From Bryobacteraceae bacterium (GTDB lineage: Bacteria; Acidobacteriota; Terriglobia; Bryobacterales; Bryobacteraceae): DNA of 64,000 nucleotides. Of the stretch, positions 3,006-52,307 are shown in pieces (position 1 is the first letter of the stretch; every line of letters begins with the position of its first letter). The position numbers and the translations under genes are program-made. The notes beneath the pieces were generated by a model, which had not been told where the DNA came from, did no database searches, and was given only the letters and a program-made list of their open reading frames with translations. Location of the stretch: assembly GCA_019748195.1 (NCBI GenBank), contig JAIEPW010000065.1, forward strand, positions 30,532-94,531. Direction: 5' to 3'.

Positions 3006-3926
3006 CTATTTCCCGAAATAGGTTTCATCCAGAACGATGCCGGCCTTCTTGCGGATCTCCTCTACTGCCTGCTGGGCCATCTGCGGCTTCAACTGCTTTT
3101 CGATGTCCGGCCGCGCAGCGGCGAGATCCTTGGTTTTGTGATCGGTAACCAGGATCAGGTGATAGCCGAAGGGTGACTTCACCGGCTCACTCAGTTCGCC
3201 CGGTTTGGCGGCAAAGGCCGCGGTCTCGAACGCAGGGACCATTTGCCCGCGTCCAAAGGTGCCCAATTCGCCGCCGCGCGCGCCCGTACCGGTATCGTCG
3301 GAATCCGCCTTGGCGACTTCGTCGAACTTCGCGCCTTCGGTAAGCTTCTTCCGCAGCTCCTGCGCGCGTGCCAGGGCTTCGGCCTCGGTCAGGTCTTTCT
3401 GCCCCTCGCGGACGGGAACTCGCGATCCCTGGAAGCGCACCAGAATGTGCTTGGCGGTCACCTGCTCCCATTCATTCTTATGCTGATCGTAGTAAGCCTG
3501 GACCTGGGCGTCCGTCACCTTCAGATTGGCCAGCATCTGCTGGTACATCGTGCTGGCGAGGAAGGTGTCGCGCTGCAAGCCGAGCTGCAGCTTCACCTGC
3601 TCCTGCTGGTCAATCTTGCGAGCTTCCGCTTCCGTCACCATCGCGCGGATTTCGGCGATCTGCTCGGCGAAACGCCGCCGGTTGGGGCCGCTGGCCTCGG
3701 CTCGAGTCCGCTCCGGCAGCGCCTCGATCAGCTTCTCGTACTGCGATTGAGTAATCTTTTGTGTCCCCACCGTGATCACAACAGGGTCGGCGGAAGCAGT
3801 CTTGGGGGCCGCGGCCGCCGGCTTGGGCTTCACCACCGCGGGCTTCACCGCGGCTGGCTTGGGCGCGGGAACGGGCGCCTGCGCGCACAGCAGGCCGAGC
3901 GGTAGAAGCGGAAAAAACAATTTCAT
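3006..3926 (-). CDS. PpiC/parvulin-type peptidyl-prolyl cis-trans isomerase (SurA-like, secreted)
   Basis: Signal peptide, Ala/Pro/Lys linker, then KHILVRFQGS...GGELGTFGRGQMVPAFETAAFAAKPGELSEPVKSPFGYHLILV rotamase signature. Confidence 0.92.
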   Translation of the reverse strand: MKLFFPLLPLGLLCAQAPVPAPKPAAVKPAVVKPKPAAAAPKTASADPVVITVGTQKITQSQYEKLIEALPERTRAEASGPNRRRFAEQIAEIRAMVTEAEARKIDQQEQVKLQLGLQRDTFLASTMYQQMLANLKVTDAQVQAYYDQHKNEWEQVTAKHILVRFQGSRVPVREGQKDLTEAEALARAQELRKKLTEGAKFDEVAKADSDDTGTGARGGELGTFGRGQMVPAFETAAFAAKPGELSEPVKSPFGYHLILVTDHKTKDLAAARPDIEKQLKPQMAQQAVEEIRKKAGIVLDETYFGK

Positions 3927-43669: not shown

Positions 43670-43800
43670 AGGCAGTCTACAACAACACCGCTTACCTGCA
43701 ATCCACGTCTCAACCCGAATCCGGCACAACCAACTACTACTACAATCCGGACAAGACGGTAAGTCACAAGATCGATGCGGACAATCGCATGACGACGTAG
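43670..43800 (+). pseudogene. RHS/YD-repeat fragment
   Basis: Frame reads QPESGTTNYYYNPDKTVSHKIDADNRMTT-stop, a YD-repeat-like scrap ending where repeat copy R1 starts. Confidence 0.6.
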
Positions 43801-43802
43801 GT

Positions 43803-44017
43803 GTTCGGTGCCTGTTCCACCTGCTCCGACTCCAAAATAACCCGGTGGTAAGGAGGAATAGCCCGTCGGGATATGCCGCTCTGATTCCAAAGGCCTTGCG
43901 CGATGCGAAGGATCAGCCTGCGTCCAGAAGCCGCCAGAAAAGAGATAAGGATCGACACCAACTGAGCGCCTGTAACCCTTTGATTCCACGTACCAGCCAC
44001 GCGAACTTGGAACAGCC
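43803..44017 (+). repeat. Interspersed repeat R1 (GGTGCCTGTTCC ... GGAACAGCC)
   Basis: Full copy aligned by eye with R2, R5, R7, R10. Confidence 0.85.
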
Positions 44018-44037
44018 GTAAACCCAGTTACAAGCCC

Positions 44038-44249
44038 GGTGCCTGTTCCACCTGCTCCGACTCCAAAATAACCCGGTGGTAAGGAGGAGTAGTCCGTTGG
44101 GATATGCCGCTCTGATTCCAAAGGCCTTGCGCCATCCCAACGTTCAGCCGGCGTCCGGAAGCCGCCAGAAACGCGATAAGGATCCACGCCAACTGAGCGC
44201 CTGTAAGCCCATGATTCCACGTACCGACCGACGAAATCCGGAACAGCCG
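44038..44249 (+). repeat. Interspersed repeat R2
   Basis: Same start and end motifs; tandem with R1. Confidence 0.85.
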
Positions 44250-44381
44250 AAAACACCACTTCCATGTCCTGTGCCAGTTCCGGCTGTTCCTTCGGAACCG
44301 CTCCGCCCACTTTCCCCGAGTCACACTCGCACTCACCAATCTAACCGCCACCCCCTCAGCAACTTACACCAACATGGATTT

Positions 44382-44670
44382 CGGGACGGTCACCTCATTT
44401 CCCTTCGACCTCCGTCCTCGATGTCCGGTAACTTCAACCTCCCTCGCGACTTGCCTTCCGCCCCGCCCTCTTCCGCCGGGCCTCGATCCGAAAGTCCTCC
44501 CCAATCCGCCGCAGCCACTCCTCGCTACCCAACGGCAAGCCCGAGCGCCGTCGCCTCATGGATTTCGGGACGGTCACCTAATTTCCCTTCGACCTCCGTC
44601 CTTGATGTCCGGTAACTTCAACCTCCCTCGCGACTTGCCTTCCGCGCCGCCCTCTTCCGCCGGGCCTTGC
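44382..44670 (-). pseudogene. Two RAYT 3'-end fragments, each starting at GGGACGGTCACCT
   Basis: 44387-44559 and 44568-44670 match the 3' end of the RAYT at 47267..47440 (e.g. CTTCCGCC..CCTCGATCCG.AAGTCCTCCCCAATCCGCCGCAGCCACTCCTCGCTACCCAACGGCA). Confidence 0.85.
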
Positions 44671-44676
44671 CGGGCC

Positions 44677-44889
44677 GGTGCCTGTTCCAGTTGTTCCGAC
44701 TCGAAAATAGCCCGGTGGTAAGGGGGAATACTCCGATGGCGTACGCGGCGCTGATTTCAAGGGCCTTATCGCTTCCCCGCCGAGCGCAGGCCTGATACCA
44801 GGCCCCGAAAATGGGATAAGGATCAGCGCCTCCTCACCGCCCGCAAGCTCATGAATCCACGTCCAACGCCGCCGTTGTCCGGAACAGCC
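44677..44889 (+). repeat. Interspersed repeat R3 (divergent subtype), contains the ATG of RHS cassette 1
   Basis: GGTGCCTGTTCCAGTTGTTCCGACTCGAAAATAGCCCGG ... CATGAATCCACGTCC...GGAACAGCC. Confidence 0.8.
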
Positions 44890-46788
44890 GGAACAGCTCC
44901 CGAATCGGGACAGCCAGTCTGGGGTTGGGTGGAACAGCCGTGCCAGCGCAAGGAGTTCTTCTACGACACCAACCCGTTCGACGCGGCGTATTCCCAGAAC
45001 ATCCAGGGCCGCCTGGCCGCCGTGCGCTACAAGTCATGCAACCTGTACCAGGCGCCGTACTCACAGACGTTCCTGGAGATGTACAGCTACACGCCCGGCG
45101 GCCTCACCACCAAGAAGCGCTTCCGCGTGGAGCGATCGCCCGGCGGCAACGGCGACCTCGACGGCGTGTGGACCTACGACAGCGAAGGCAAGATGACCTC
45201 GGTTGCGATCCCCAAGTCGTCCACGTACAGTTATGGGTACGACTCGATGGGCCGAGTTTACAGCATGAATCGGGACGGCGAAGGTCCAGTGGTGAACGGG
45301 ATTGGCTACGGCCCCGCGGGCGAGCTGATGACGATGGTCAAGGGCGGGGCGCTTTATGAAAACCGCACCTACAATGACCGGCTGCAGCTTCGCACGTTGC
45401 AGGTGGGCACGCGAAATATCACCTACAATTACGGCGCGGGTGGAACAAACAACGGGCAAATTGTTTCGCAGGTCGAAGACGGCGAAACGATCGCCTATCA
45501 GTACGACGAGCTGAAACGCCTCGCCTCGGCGAGCGCCACCGGCGCCATGACCTGGACCCAGAGCTACAACTATGACGGCTTCGGCAACCTGGTCTCGATG
45601 GGAGCGAGCGGCAACGGCGGCGGCGGAGGCCCCACCGCGGGCAGCCAAGTGATCAATCCGGCGACGAACAAGCCGTTCAGCGGCTACTCCGCCGCCGGGC
45701 TGCCGAATTTCGGCGGCTGGGACAACGACAATCGGATGGTTACGGCGTTTGGGCCTGGCAGCAATCCAGAGTATTTGGTTTACTCGCCCTCGGGCAAGCG
45801 GGTGTGGAATCAGGGCGTGCGGCTGGTCGACCCGTTCACCCAGGAAACCGTGCAGGAGGTCTGGTTCTGGAGCCCGCAAGGCCAGCGGCTCGCGTTTTAT
45901 TCGCTGTCGAATACCGGCGCGCCGGTGTTCACCTTCCAGTCGGCGAACTTGTATATGGGCGGCAAGCTGATCAACCAGCCGACGGACCGGCTCGGCTCGG
46001 TGGGCAAGTTCTATCCCTACGGCGCAGAGCGCAACCCGACCGGCCAATCTGGCGAGAAGTTCGCGACCTATTTCCATGACGCGAATGTCGGGCTGTATTA
46101 CGCGGACCAGCGCTGGCATCTCGGGACTCGCTTCGCGACCCCGGACCCCTACCAGGCAAGCGGCGGCCCCGCCGACCCGGGGAGTTGGAATCGGTATGCG
46201 TATGTGGGTGGTGACCCGGGAAACCGTGTTGATCCGGCTGGCCTTTTCTTTTGCGAGGTCGGGACGCAGTTCCTGGGCCAGCAAGGTCAGATGGAGTGGT
46301 GGTGTTATAACTACGTACCAACGGTTGCTCTTTGCCCGCCGGGACTGCTGAACCTCGGAGGCGTCTGTTCCCCTGCAATCGATGTACCCGCCATTGATCC
46401 GCAACTCGTTTCAATTGGGGGTCTCCGACAAGTTGGTGCCATTAGTGGGTGGCAGCGGGAATTGGACGGGTACACGCTTTCCTTCCGGAGTGCTGAGGCC
46501 TTGAAGATCGCTCTCCCGATCTGTATCGCCCAGCCGCAACTATGTGCGGTGGTCGGGGGTGCGATCGCAATCTACGTGACTTACCCAGTACTGGAGCAAA
46601 TCATTCGTGATTTGATCGCGTTGTATCAACAAAAGCCTACTACAATCACGATCGAGGATGATCTCTGTATGGAGATATTGCAAGCAGACCTTCGTGCTTG
46701 CCGTCAGGCGCCGATACCTTCTCTAACGTGCTTCGAAAAAGCTTACCTAAATTACGATCGCTGCTTGAAGAAGCTGCCCAGGGTCTGA
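44851..46788 (+). CDS. RHS repeat-associated core protein, 5'-truncated cassette 1 with Cys-rich tip
   Basis: YTPGGLTTKKRF, YGYDSMGRVYSMNR, YNYDGFGNLVSM repeats; core end FATPDPYQASGGPADPGSWNRYAYVGGDPGNRVDPAGLF then unique tip. Confidence 0.85.
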   Translation: MNPRPTPPLSGTAGTAPESGQPVWGWVEQPCQRKEFFYDTNPFDAAYSQNIQGRLAAVRYKSCNLYQAPYSQTFLEMYSYTPGGLTTKKRFRVERSPGGNGDLDGVWTYDSEGKMTSVAIPKSSTYSYGYDSMGRVYSMNRDGEGPVVNGIGYGPAGELMTMVKGGALYENRTYNDRLQLRTLQVGTRNITYNYGAGGTNNGQIVSQVEDGETIAYQYDELKRLASASATGAMTWTQSYNYDGFGNLVSMGASGNGGGGGPTAGSQVINPATNKPFSGYSAAGLPNFGGWDNDNRMVTAFGPGSNPEYLVYSPSGKRVWNQGVRLVDPFTQETVQEVWFWSPQGQRLAFYSLSNTGAPVFTFQSANLYMGGKLINQPTDRLGSVGKFYPYGAERNPTGQSGEKFATYFHDANVGLYYADQRWHLGTRFATPDPYQASGGPADPGSWNRYAYVGGDPGNRVDPAGLFFCEVGTQFLGQQGQMEWWCYNYVPTVALCPPGLLNLGGVCSPAIDVPAIDPQLVSIGGLRQVGAISGWQRELDGYTLSFRSAEALKIALPICIAQPQLCAVVGGAIAIYVTYPVLEQIIRDLIALYQQKPTTITIEDDLCMEILQADLRACRQAPIPSLTCFEKAYLNYDRCLKKLPRV

Positions 46789-46792
46789 GGTT

Positions 46793-47215
46793 ATGCGAAC
46801 TCCGGCTGACGAATTCCTGCTTGCGTGGGATCACGAATTAGCGGGCGAATGGCAGAGGGCTGAGAGGATGCTCGAACTACGCCTGGAAGAACTAATCCGC
46901 TCAGACCACGACTGCGGGTGGATCGACATCTACGCCCAAGCGTTGGCGAGGCTGCGGACATCCAAGGGCAATGTGTTGGGGGCACGTGAAGCACTAAGAT
47001 CAGCCAGTCAAGCTTGTCCGGATCGCCTTGGAATCTGCTACGGACTTGTGTGTGTGGAGATCAAGTTGGGAAGGCGCTCTGATGCTGAGGCCGCCTTCCA
47101 GCGGTTCCTAGCGCTAACACGCACCTCGCCCGCGGAACTGGCCCCGGCTTACCTTGAGCTCGTCCCGTTAGTTGCCAAGGACTTTGAAATTGCCTTCGGT
47201 AACCCGCCTGTCTAA
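46793..47215 (+). CDS. TPR-like hypothetical protein (140 aa), candidate RHS tip partner
   Basis: Starts 4 nt after RHS cassette 1 stop; helical repeat character (ALARLRTSKGNVLGAREALRSASQACPDRLG...). Confidence 0.65.
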   Translation: MRTPADEFLLAWDHELAGEWQRAERMLELRLEELIRSDHDCGWIDIYAQALARLRTSKGNVLGAREALRSASQACPDRLGICYGLVCVEIKLGRRSDAEAAFQRFLALTRTSPAELAPAYLELVPLVAKDFEIAFGNPPV

Positions 47216-47233
47216 ATTTTGCATTTCGGATTC

Positions 47234-47267
47234 GGGGACGGTCACCTGGATCGGGGGACGGTCACCT
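47234..47267. repeat. Tandem GGGGACGGTCACCT motif at the 3' boundary of the RAYT gene
   Basis: GGGGACGGTCACCTGGATCGGGGGACGGTCACCT; also at 44382, 44567 and 51544. Confidence 0.8.
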
Positions 47268-47920
47268 CATTCCCCTTCAGCCTCAACAGCATCCCGGTAA
47301 GTTCCACCTCCCGCGCGACTTACCTTTCGCCCCGCCCTCTTCCGCCGAGCCTCGATCCGGAAGTCCTCCCCAATCCGCCGCAGCCACTCCTCGCTACCCA
47401 ACGGCAGCCCGAGCGCCGTCGCCTCACGAATCCGCTGCACCATCGCCGCATCTGCTAAACCCAGCTCTCTGGCGTGTACCGTTGCCGCCACCGCACCAGG
47501 TCCAGAAGGCCGTTCCGCAAGTGCGCCTGTGCCTAATCGGGCTCTCTGCGGATTTTGCTCGACATAAACCATTGCCGCCCGGAAATGTTCTTCATCCATT
47601 GGAACCGATTGAAAACGAGCCTGAAACAGGTGCCCCTTGCGGCGCAGCCGCACGTGGATCGCCCGCGCATAGTCCCCGTGGAGCCGGCGAAATAGCCGCC
47701 CCAGAGCTTGCTCGTTCCGCGGGACCAGAATCAGGTGGACGTGATTCGGCATAAGGCAATATCCGAGGATAGCCACGCCGTAGTGGCGGGCATACTCGGC
47801 GCGCAAGTTCAAGTCAAGGCGATAGTCTTCAGAGCGGAAGAAAATCTTCTGTCGATAATTACCCCGTTGGGTGATATGGTGGGGAAGGCCAGGGATTACA
47901 GTGCGCGCGACGCGGGGCAT
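47267..47920 (-). mobile_element. Intact RAYT (TnpA_REP-like Y1 transposase)
   Basis: GLPHHITQRGNYRQKIFF..., HUH motif NHVHLI, YVEQNPQRARL tyrosine region; 217 aa. Confidence 0.92.
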
Positions 47921-47931
47921 ACCAGTGGTTC

Positions 47932-48063
47932 GGTGCCTGTTCCACCTGCTCCGACTCCAAAATAACCCGGTGGTAAGGAGGAATAGCCCGCTGGGGGATG
48001 CCGCTCTGATTCCAATGGCCTTGCGCGATGCGAAGGATCAGCCGACGTCTAGTAATTTCGAGG
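47932..48063 (+). repeat. Interspersed repeat R4 (truncated by R5)
   Basis: Starts 12 nt from the RAYT start codon; truncated at GACGTCTAGTAATTTCGAGGTG. Confidence 0.8.
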
Positions 48064-48290
48064 TGTTCGGTGCCTGTTCGGTGCCTGTTCCGGCTGCTCC
48101 GACTCCAAACTAACCCGGTTGTAAGGAGGAGTAGTCCGTTGGGGGATGCCGCGTTGATTCCACAGGCTTTAAGCGATACGCATGATAAGCTTACGCCCAG
48201 AATCGGCCAGAAAAGGGGTAAGCATCAACGCTTTCTGAGCGTCCGTAAGCCCTTGATTCCACGTTCGCGCGGCTGACATTCGGAACAGCC
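48064..48290 (+). repeat. Interspersed repeat R5
   Basis: Full copy with duplicated TTCGGTGCCTG at its left end. Confidence 0.85.
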
Positions 48291-48319
48291 GTAAAGCCCG
48301 CCGACGGCCGGTGCCGGGC

Positions 48320-48358
48320 CGGTGCCTGTTCCAGCTGTTCCGACTCGAAAATAGCCCA
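48320..48358 (+). repeat. Interspersed repeat R6 (short left-end fragment)
   Basis: GGTGCCTGTTCCAGCTGTTCCGACTCGAAAATAGCCC then R7. Confidence 0.75.
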
Positions 48359-48361
48359 GGT

Positions 48362-48576
48362 GTTCGGTGCCTGTTCCGGCTGCTCCGACTCCAAACTAAC
48401 CCGGTTGTGAGGAGGAGTAGTCCGTTGGGGGATGCCGCGTTGATTCCACAGGCTGCAAGCGATACGCATGATAAGCTTACGCCCAGAATCGGCCAGAAAA
48501 GGGGTAAGCATCAACGCCTTTTGAGCGTCCGTAAGCCCTTGATTCCACGTTCGCGCGGCTGACATTCGGAACAGCC
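48362..48576 (+). repeat. Interspersed repeat R7, near-identical to R5
   Basis: Alignment by eye. Confidence 0.85.
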
Positions 48577-48596
48577 GTAAAGCCCGCCTTACGGCC

Positions 48597-48810
48597 GGTG
48601 CCTGTTCCAGACTGTTCCGACTCGAAAATAGCCCGGTGGTAAGGGGGAGTACTCCGATGGCGTACGCGGCGCTGATTTCAAGGGCCTTATCGCTTCCCCG
48701 CCGAGCGCAGGCCTGATACCAGGCCCCGAAAATGGGATAAGGATCAGCGCCTCCTCACCGCCCGCAAGCTCATGAATCCACGTCCAACGCCGCCGTTGTC
48801 CGGAACAGCC
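48597..48810 (+). repeat. Interspersed repeat R8, near-identical to R3, contains the ATG of RHS cassette 2
   Basis: Differs from R3 by few substitutions and one indel by eye. Confidence 0.8.
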
Positions 48811-50883
48811 GGAACAGCTCCCGAATCGGGACAGCCAGTCTGGGGTTGGGTGGAACAGCCGTGCCAGCGCAAGGAGTTCTTCTACGACACCAACCCGTTC
48901 GACGCGGCGTATTCCCAGAACATCCAGGGCCGCCTGGCCGCCGTGCGCTACAAGTCATGCAACCTGTACCAGGCGCCGTACTCACAGACGTTCCTGGAGA
49001 TGTACAGCTACACGCCCGGCGGCCTCACCACCAAGAAGCGCTTCCGCGTGGAGCGATCGCCCGGCGGCAACGGCGACCTCGACGGCGTGTGGACCTACGA
49101 CAGCGAAGGCAAGATGACCTCGGTTGCGATCCCCAAGTCGTCCACGTACAGTTATGGGTACGACTCGATGGGCCGAGTTTACAGCATGAATCGGGACGGC
49201 GAAGGTCCAGTGGTGAACGGGATTGGCTACGGCCCCGCGGGCGAGCTGATGACGATGGTCAAGGGCGGGGCGCTTTATGAAAACCGCACCTACAATGACC
49301 GGCTGCAGCTTCGCACGTTGCAGGTGGGCACGCGAAATATCACCTACAATTACGGCGCGGGTGGAACAAACAACGGGCAAATTGTTTCGCAGGTCGAAGA
49401 CGGCGAAACGATCGCCTATCAGTACGACGAGCTGAAACGCCTCGCCTCGGCGAGCGCCACCGGCGCCATGACCTGGACCCAGAGCTACAACTATGACGGC
49501 TTCGGCAACCTGGTCTCGATGGGAGCGAGCGGCAACGGCGGCGGCGGAGGCCCCACCGCGGGCAGCCAAGTGATCAATCCGGCGACGAACAAGCCGTTCA
49601 GCGGCTACTCCGCCGCGGGGCTGCCCAATTTTGGCGGCTGGGACAACGACAACCGGATGGTTGTGGCGACCGGTCCGGGTAGCAACCCGGAATATTTGGC
49701 TTACTCGCCCTCTGGCAAGCGGGTGTGGAACCAGGGCGTGCGGCTGGTCGACCCGTTCACCCAGGAAACCGTGCAGGAGGTCTGGTTCTGGAGCCCGCAG
49801 GGCCAGCGGCTCGCGTTTTATTCGCTGTCGAACACCGGCGCGCCGGTGTTCACCTTCCAGTCGGCCAATTTATATATGGGCGGCAAGTTGATCAACCAGC
49901 CGACGGACCGGCTCGGCTCGGTGGGCAAGTTCTATCCCTACGGCGCAGAGCGCAACCCGACCGGGCAATCCGGCGAGAAATTCGCGACCTATTTCCATGA
50001 CGCGAATGTCGGGCTGTATTACGCGGACCAGCGCTGGCATGGAACTTGGGGTCGCTTCGCAACGCCCGACCCCTACCAGGCGAGCGGCGGTCCCGCCGAC
50101 CCAGGGAGTTGGAATCGGTATGCGTATACGTGGGGTGATCCCATCAACAACATCGACCCTGAAGGTACGACGGTCTGCTACAACTTAGGGGTTTTTGTGT
50201 TTTGTTTCGACAGCGTCACGGTATCCGCTCAGATTTCCGGCGGTGGAGGTCCCAGGGGCGGCGGTGGTGGCGGGGTCAACTTGCCATCCTTGGAAATCGG
50301 ACCAGATGGGATGTTGTTTCTTTTCTTAAACAATGTCGGACCCTCCATCTCTTCTGGTAGTTCGTCACGCGGTGAGATGGGGGGCAACCGACGCGGTTCC
50401 GGAGAGCCCACGAGAGGACGCGTCGGGAATGACACGCCCACGGTCCCAGGCACGTACGCCTGCAGGAGCACGCTCCACGTAGCTCCGTTTGATCGCCTTG
50501 GACCGACCGGGGCCGGGCCGCTCCGTCATGATTACCTGTGCACTTTAGATGGCCAAGGTAACTGGACTTGCGGTGGCCAAGGGCCTTCTGGCAATCCGTT
50601 CGGTAGCCCCGGCGCGAACGATTCTGGTTCTGGATTCACCAGGACAAATTGCGCCTTGATAAGCACCAATTCAGCCTTAACGGAATGCGTTGACAATCGT
50701 CTGCAGGATCCAGATCGCGGGTACTACGATGTCACATGCTTGAGCGGTGTGAACTGTCAGAGGTGGGCCAGGGATGTTCGGTCCGCCTGCGGCCTTAATC
50801 CTCCCAGTACTCCTCCAACTAATCTGGGTCCTGATGGTAATCCGCAGAATTGCTCTTTGGGTAGACTGTTATGCAACAATTAG
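48772..50883 (+). CDS. RHS repeat-associated core protein, 5'-truncated cassette 2 with different tip
   Basis: First ~294 aa identical to cassette 1; tip after NNIDPEGTT is unrelated (Gly-rich, Cys-containing). Confidence 0.85.
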   Translation: MNPRPTPPLSGTAGTAPESGQPVWGWVEQPCQRKEFFYDTNPFDAAYSQNIQGRLAAVRYKSCNLYQAPYSQTFLEMYSYTPGGLTTKKRFRVERSPGGNGDLDGVWTYDSEGKMTSVAIPKSSTYSYGYDSMGRVYSMNRDGEGPVVNGIGYGPAGELMTMVKGGALYENRTYNDRLQLRTLQVGTRNITYNYGAGGTNNGQIVSQVEDGETIAYQYDELKRLASASATGAMTWTQSYNYDGFGNLVSMGASGNGGGGGPTAGSQVINPATNKPFSGYSAAGLPNFGGWDNDNRMVVATGPGSNPEYLAYSPSGKRVWNQGVRLVDPFTQETVQEVWFWSPQGQRLAFYSLSNTGAPVFTFQSANLYMGGKLINQPTDRLGSVGKFYPYGAERNPTGQSGEKFATYFHDANVGLYYADQRWHGTWGRFATPDPYQASGGPADPGSWNRYAYTWGDPINNIDPEGTTVCYNLGVFVFCFDSVTVSAQISGGGGPRGGGGGGVNLPSLEIGPDGMLFLFLNNVGPSISSGSSSRGEMGGNRRGSGEPTRGRVGNDTPTVPGTYACRSTLHVAPFDRLGPTGAGPLRHDYLCTLDGQGNWTCGGQGPSGNPFGSPGANDSGSGFTRTNCALISTNSALTECVDNRLQDPDRGYYDVTCLSGVNCQRWARDVRSACGLNPPSTPPTNLGPDGNPQNCSLGRLLCNN

Positions 50884-51269
50884 CACGAACCTCATTCCGG
50901 CTGGTTCGACTGGTTTGGCTCATTTTCTGCCTCTTCACAATCGGTTTCGCGTTGTACCTCAAGGCTGTTGGCGAGGACGCAGAGATCTTCTGCGTCTTAA
51001 CGATGGAGATGCTCACTTTTCCTGTTGGCGGGATCTGTTTTCGACTAGTCGGGAAACTAGCATACGCCTGGGTTCCGGGAACGGGTACGTTCATGACTAG
51101 CGGTGGATTCGGTCCGATCATTGCTGTCTGGTTTCTTTACTTTGTATTTGGAATCATTCAGTGGTTTTGGTTTGTGCCGCGTTTACCAAATTGGTTGAAG
51201 GGTTGCTTCGCAAGCAGCTCCGCTTCCCGGAGTTCGGTGCCGGTTCCACCTGCTCCGACTTCAAAATAA
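50871..51269 (+). CDS. Small membrane protein, candidate RHS tip partner; C-terminus derived from repeat R9
   Basis: Overlaps RHS cassette 2 by 13 nt; hydrophobic segments LVWLIFCLFTIGFALYL and FGPIIAVWFLYFVFGIIQWFWF. Confidence 0.6.
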   Translation: MQQLARTSFRLVRLVWLIFCLFTIGFALYLKAVGEDAEIFCVLTMEMLTFPVGGICFRLVGKLAYAWVPGTGTFMTSGGFGPIIAVWFLYFVFGIIQWFWFVPRLPNWLKGCFASSSASRSSVPVPPAPTSK

Positions 51270-51630: not shown

Positions 51631-52065
51631 TCAGGTGGTTTCCCAAGGATTGACTAACGGAACCGCCAAGGTGACGAAGTCCTTGACGTTGCGCGTGGCC
51701 AGTGTAAGCCCATGTTCCAGAGCGGTTGCCGCGATCAGCCCGTCTATGACACCGAGGTGGACGCCGCGTTCTTGAGCTCGCGCCGACAAGACCGCCCAGC
51801 GGTCGCCGATGTTCTTTGTTACCGGCAGGACATTTGCACCAGGAAAGGACGCGATCAGGTCTGCTTCAAGCCAGCGTTCTAACTCCTCGCGGCGTTTGCC
51901 GGGCGGCAGCAGTTCGATGCCCCTGCGGATTTCGGCCAGCGTCAGGATACTTACGTAGAGCGATTCGGACTCGACCGATTTAAGCCAATTCCTGACGTTC
52001 GGATTCGGGTCGCCCCGTCTTGAAAATTCGGAAAGGACGTTGGTGTCAACCAGGAACCCGCTCAC
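51631..52065 (-). CDS. VapC-like PIN domain toxin
   Basis: FLVDTNVLSEFSRRG; LAEIRRGIELLP; VIDGLIAATALEHGLTLATRNVKDF. Confidence 0.9.
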   Translation of the reverse strand: MSGFLVDTNVLSEFSRRGDPNPNVRNWLKSVESESLYVSILTLAEIRRGIELLPPGKRREELERWLEADLIASFPGANVLPVTKNIGDRWAVLSARAQERGVHLGVIDGLIAATALEHGLTLATRNVKDFVTLAVPLVNPWETT

Positions 52066-52307
52066 AGCTCAATCGGCCTGGGGTAATCCTTCTGCCGTTC
52101 CAGATTGAGCTCGGAACCGGCAAATGGAGGTTGGCTTAGAACATCCACCAGGTTCTTGCGAGGTTTGGCTGTGCCCGATACCTTCGACTCTTTTTCCAGC
52201 AACGCCGCAAGGGCGTGATCCAACACTTCGGCAGCGTCGCGAAAATGGCCGCTACGGATCTCTTCCTGGATGATCCGTTCCTGCTCGGGCTTGAGATGGA
52301 TCGTCAC
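52062..52307 (-). CDS. ParD/RHH-like antitoxin of the VapC-like toxin
   Basis: MTIHLKPEQERIIQEEIRSGHFRDAAEVLDHALAALLEKE; 4-nt overlap with toxin gene. Confidence 0.82.
   Translation of the reverse strand: MTIHLKPEQERIIQEEIRSGHFRDAAEVLDHALAALLEKESKVSGTAKPRKNLVDVLSQPPFAGSELNLERQKDYPRPIEL

Follow-up and report, generated by a model that had tools for sequence, protein, structure and literature searches.

In rhs genes, core and tips become decoupled and are displaced through homologous recombination, and dissociated cores are identical within a locus (PMC2935791). Orphan rhs-CT and cdiA-CT modules usually have no translation initiation signals, are linked to immunity genes, and are deployed by recombination with the main gene (PMC3967940, PMC3150448). 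The orphan rhs-CT/rhsI modules of the Enterobacteriaceae (Salmonella LT2, Dickeya dadantii) have a partial core, a unique tip after a DPxG motif, and a small gene directly downstream. They carry no start signals, stand several in a row, and typically follow a main full-length rhs gene.

The window analyzed here (the whole stretch of DNA, which is the right-hand, last 64 kb of contig C142) contains two RHS cassettes, A and B, that resemble these modules in composition and arrangement. There are two differences, however: the cassettes are headed by interspersed repeats, and no main full-length rhs gene is found in the assembly. The combination of identical core fragments and unrelated tips in one locus is similar to the C-terminal displacement that Jackson et al. 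(2009) described for rhs genes, but here only the 5′ 967 bp are identical, the 3′ core has diverged, and the parent gene is missing. Overall the feature is real and mostly ordinary, and fits the described kind of orphan rhs-CT cassette. The missing parent gene, together with the presence of element ends at several 5′ borders, makes it a little unusual.

A and B are most likely orphan rhs-CT cassettes whose 5′ ends were cut at elements linked to REP-associated tyrosine transposases (RAYT), and whose cores were homogenized by recombination or gene conversion, or by duplication. Each would be a 5′-truncated RHS gene fragment, with a core stretch, a unique tip (presumed toxin) and a small gene (presumed immunity), and would be one of at least three such cassettes, the third being inverted and lying across the C150/C142 contig break. 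Homologous recombination, gene conversion or recent duplication would have produced the identical 5′ core, with the 3′ core and the tips remaining distinct. The 5′ ends would have arisen by insertion or recombination of interspersed RAYT-linked elements in RHS genes.

Overall organization of the locus

The features of the locus are as follows.

43670–43800, + strand: RHS scrap, flanked by an IS110-type transposase gene and repeat R1
43802–44290, + strand: repeats R1 and R2, with 231-bp spacing
44383–44622, − strand: C-terminal remnant of a RAYT gene, with a single element end (44383)
44673–44904, + strand: repeat R3, heading copy A; starts with CGGTGCCTGTTCC and ends with GGAACAGCCG
44729–45695, + strand: identical stretch, 967 bp, with 0 differences from copy B 48650–49616
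44851–46788, + strand: orphan RHS ORF A, 645 aa as called; matches TIGR03696 and PF05593; RHS proper from 44905
45696–46217, + strand: diverged core of copy A, homologous to copy B 49617–50141
46243–46788, + strand: tip A, 181 aa, with no family match
46793–47215, + strand: candidate immunity gene A, 140 aa and TPR-like; its start lies 4 bp past the tip A stop
47255–47920, − strand: RAYT-like element with a Y1 transposase gene (47267–47920); end GGGACGGTCACCTCATT at 47255
48593–48825, + strand: repeat R8, heading copy B
48772–50883, + strand: orphan RHS ORF B, 703 aa as called; matches TIGR03696 and PF05593
50167–50883, + strand: tip B, 238 aa, with no family match
50871–51269, + strand: candidate immunity gene B, 132 aa and hydrophobic, with a 13-bp overlap with the tip B stop

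The scrap at 43670–43800, noted earlier as a third piece of RHS, is true RHS sequence, as it matches the full-length RHS of a relative.

Comparison of the two cassettes

Copy A (44673–46788) and copy B (48593–50883) were compared by base-by-base nucleotide alignment. The preliminary description had reported near identity of 44677–45693 and 48597–49614, with about 294 identical N-terminal residues, no visible differences in the core, a few in the leading repeat, and an abrupt drop around 45693/49614. The alignment bears this out and maps the proposed conversion tract to 44729–45695. The homology extends from 44673/48593, the left end of repeats R3 and R8, to about 46217/50141. Three differences (at 44690, 44691 and 44728) fall in the initial 52 bp of the leading repeat, followed by the tract of 967 bp with none. 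At the protein level, the two called ORFs agree in all of their first 297 residues. The length and identity of this match exclude a chance origin.

The onset of divergence is sharp, at 45696/49617, where the difference changes from 0% to about 6%. The first 423 bp of the diverged core have 27 differences, and the last stretch is more strongly diverged. At the rate of these adjoining 423 bp, the 967-bp tract should contain about 60 differences, and 0 are seen. In the 423 bp, 24 codons of the shared core differ, 21 of them by synonymous and 3 by nonsynonymous changes (dN 0.016, dS 0.26, dN/dS about 0.06). As most of the changed codons are silent, the 3′ core has diverged under constraint.

Tips and candidate immunity genes

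Both ORFs contain the Rhs_assc_core domain (TIGR03696) at residues 387–465, with scores of 38.3 bits in ORF A and 44.5 bits in ORF B (cut-off 32.5), as well as RHS repeats (PF05593). The domain ends exactly at the border of the tip in both ORFs, the canonical position, and the homology between A and B stops just before DPAG in A and DPEG in B. The tips beyond this point are unrelated to each other. The earlier reading of the pair as orphan RHS C-terminal cassettes with a shared core and different tips thus stands. A search of the Protein Data Bank gives a weak match of ORF B to the solved Rhs chains 8h8a and 8h8b (7.6e-5).

No recognizable toxin domain or family match was found for the tips in searches of Pfam, NCBIfam and PADLOC, and their single-sequence AlphaFold models are not usable (pLDDT 36 and 52). 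Among 236 other genomes of the family, tips A and B each have only one marginal, partial match, and tip B has no match in a phylum-wide sample of 395 further genomes. The range of orphan RHS tip cassettes thereby extends to a poorly sampled lineage, in which the tips are private.

The small ORFs directly 3′ of the tips are candidate immunity genes by virtue of their position, and they may be expressed. The product of gene A has a match to PF13428 (24.5 bits, cut-off 23.5). Gene B ends within repeat R9, and its last residues (51229–51269) are thus encoded by the repeat.

A third copy and the assembly graph

The start of contig C142 (C142:1–546, minus strand) carries the same core, preceded by about 150 further RHS residues rather than by the repeat. 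The end of contig C150 contains the last part of the core, then a third tip with a small ORF of its own downstream. Both contig ends overlap the core in the window by exactly 77 bp, with one overlap ending at 44993, which is the hallmark of a k=77 de Bruijn graph broken at a merged (collapsed) repeat. Exact 77-mers are also shared by the ends of further contigs with RHS or RAYT sequences (C14–C142, C10–C42 and C35–C72). The RHS fragment at the end of C14 (1–190, L084) has its 77-mer in common with C142:354–430, and the upstream RHS stretch is therefore present at one more locus.

Three prefixes and three tips share one merged core, and at least three copies are likely present in the genome. 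The third copy has the opposite orientation to A and B, so the intervening 75 kb may lie in either direction. The copy at the start of C142 was considered as the full-length parent and was ruled out, being 5′-truncated just downstream of an OmpA-like gene.

These observations bear on the perfect identity of the cores, which could be a product of assembly, as could the pairing of prefixes with tips. The k=77 graph would have merged at least three similar cores, and the merged path would have been walked twice in C142, since tip A and prefix B, which are joined by unique DNA, form a simple loop. The 77-bp overlaps at both broken ends and the 77-mers shared by the other three pairs of contigs are consistent with this explanation. 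Moreover, among the RHS matches listed for relatives, 9 of 28 are located within 300 bp of a contig end (about 1.1 expected), and contigs near 1 kb would probably be lost in binning, so that a diverged copy of the core could be missing. On the other hand, the three distinct prefixes and three distinct tips suggest that at least three copies are real, a diverged core holding some 60 differences would not have been treated as a simple bubble and merged, and no leftover diverged copy was found. We consider an assembly product rather unlikely. The prefix–tip pairing and the perfect identity nevertheless rest on the k=77 graph and are unproven, and the identical tract is possibly overstated. This caveat limits the claim of gene conversion. 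The jump at 45696 is as expected for the recombination or gene conversion proposed earlier, but the perfect identity upstream of it may reflect graph collapse. More generally, short-read assemblies break in RHS cores, and long reads are required to establish orphan arrays and the pairing of tips in such genomes.

Parent gene and relatives

The 2275-residue RHS protein of a relative (L074) was used as the query for a parent gene. It matches this genome only in the core (residues 1584–2031) and in a short stretch upstream, and its first 980 residues have no match. The shared core of A and B corresponds to these core residues, which agrees with the earlier remark that both ORFs lack the usual RHS N-terminus. 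No full-length RHS gene of this core type is found in the assembly, which is 99.7% complete. The usual partner for tip swapping is therefore missing, as the third copy is 5′-truncated too.

The expectation of a full-length RHS gene with a homologous core was borne out in relatives, with open frames of 900–2400 aa, but not in this genome. Several of these full-length genes have orphan cassettes adjoining them. Three genomes (G032, G035 and G099) have full-length genes together with orphan or paired cassettes, and the core identity there is patchy, at 67–100% per 100 bp, as recurrent recombination between neighboring cassettes would leave it.

If the full-length gene was lost, the RHS pieces could be functionless, decaying pseudogenes left in a repeat-rich island. 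Every RHS locus of this core type found in the genome is 5′-truncated, there are RHS scraps at 43670 and on C140 and C14, and remnants of IS110 and RAYT lie all around. In comparison, both frames are open over their full 645 and 703 codons, an intact ORF has been kept beside each tip, and the diverged core has a low dN/dS, though this constraint possibly dates from before truncation. Decay is a possibility we take seriously but do not favor over orphan cassettes that retain their tips and downstream genes.

The interspersed repeat

The repeat unit is about 225 bp long, with CGGTGCCTGTTCC at its start and GGAACAGCCG at its end. R3 is 98–100% identical to R8 and about 70–80% identical to the remaining repeats. 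RHS sequence proper begins at 44905, about 25 bp past the end of the repeat, as mapped against the third copy. At the position of the junction the third copy reads TCGGGACAGCCGG, similar to the repeat end, and this short similarity may be where the junction arose.

As described earlier, both called ORFs open with ATGAATCCACGTCC within R3 and R8. The frame stays open from this ATG into the core, and the left limit of the A/B homology coincides with the left end of the repeat. The repeat might then provide a promoter and a start codon, with the cassettes expressed as independent short RHS proteins. However, only three of the eight full copies of the repeat in the window and C150 (R2, R3 and R8) have the ATG, the others having TTG or CTG. 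No Shine-Dalgarno sequence was found before the ATG, and promoter-like sites in the repeats occur at chance level and on the wrong strand. As most copies have no ATG, no ribosome-binding site is present, and orphan cassettes are known without start signals, the suggested role of the repeat family as start-codon donor is rejected, and expression launched from the repeat is highly improbable. If RAYT-linked elements made the 5′ ends, the ATG is incidental and marks the site of truncation of the RHS gene. Translation of the cassettes as called is improbable, and they may well be silent.

Two other assignments of the repeat were also rejected. Some copies have an open reverse strand, but the substitutions have no codon-position bias, which argues against a coding repeat. 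The 225-bp unit folds no better than shuffled sequences (z = +1.57), which does not support a classic REP hairpin.

RAYT-like elements at RHS borders

The gene at 47267–47920 encodes a Y1_Tnp domain (PF01797, 1.2e-12). Its NF047646 score is 52.6 bits, below the curated cut-off of 80, and the gene is referred to as RAYT-like only. As in RAYT systems, a Y1 gene (HUH type) is located between inverted ends of about 17–21 bp, in several copies. It differs from the RAYT/REP systems in the score below the NCBIfam cut-off, in the lack of a stable hairpin in the 225-bp repeat, and in ends that abut truncated RHS genes.

Near-complete elements with the inverted ends GGGACGGTCACCTCATT and GGGACAGTCGCCTCATT are found on C140 (43873–44603; L083 1874–2604) and C10 (90–873; L085). 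In both, an RHS core begins within a few bases of the element end. These cores belong to two different RHS types and are cut at different positions. The genome has nine exact copies of the end motif, all on C10, C140 and C142 and within about 3.3 kb of RHS sequence. The association is incomplete, as no RHS neighbor was detected for the close RAYT copies on C77, C35 and C72.

RAYT of this type was absent from the RHS loci of 34 relatives, and its placement beside RHS as a family-wide rule was rejected on these grounds. A literature search on RAYT, REP sequences and rhs together found no paper. That several RHS fragments are cut at or near RAYT-element ends, unlike in the relatives, is only a mildly new point. 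In a broader form, RAYT-type elements and their non-autonomous repeats would bound RHS tip cassettes, inserting in cores, capping the unit of tip and immunity gene on its 5′ side, and letting such units duplicate and move as element-headed cassettes with no full-length parent. This generalization is improbable. If element boundaries were general, they would suggest how RHS cassettes get cut loose from parent genes.

A second, distantly related pair of RHS cassettes is located on C42 (560–4626, L011). Their cores are 94% identical over 675 bp, their tips differ, and a RAYT remnant lies between them. C10 2441–3317 (L085) corresponds to C42 4551–5430 (L011), with 98.8% identity over 880 bp and both flanks shared at about 99%. 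C10 has an extra 2.3 kb that includes a RAYT element as well as a kinase-like ORF, and another element end is located at 3326. C10 may be a strain variant or a paralogue of the C42 locus.

Beside the RHS region, a PIN-domain protein (PF01850) is encoded at 51631–52307 on the − strand of the window, with a small upstream ORF. The two likely form a type II toxin–antitoxin pair.
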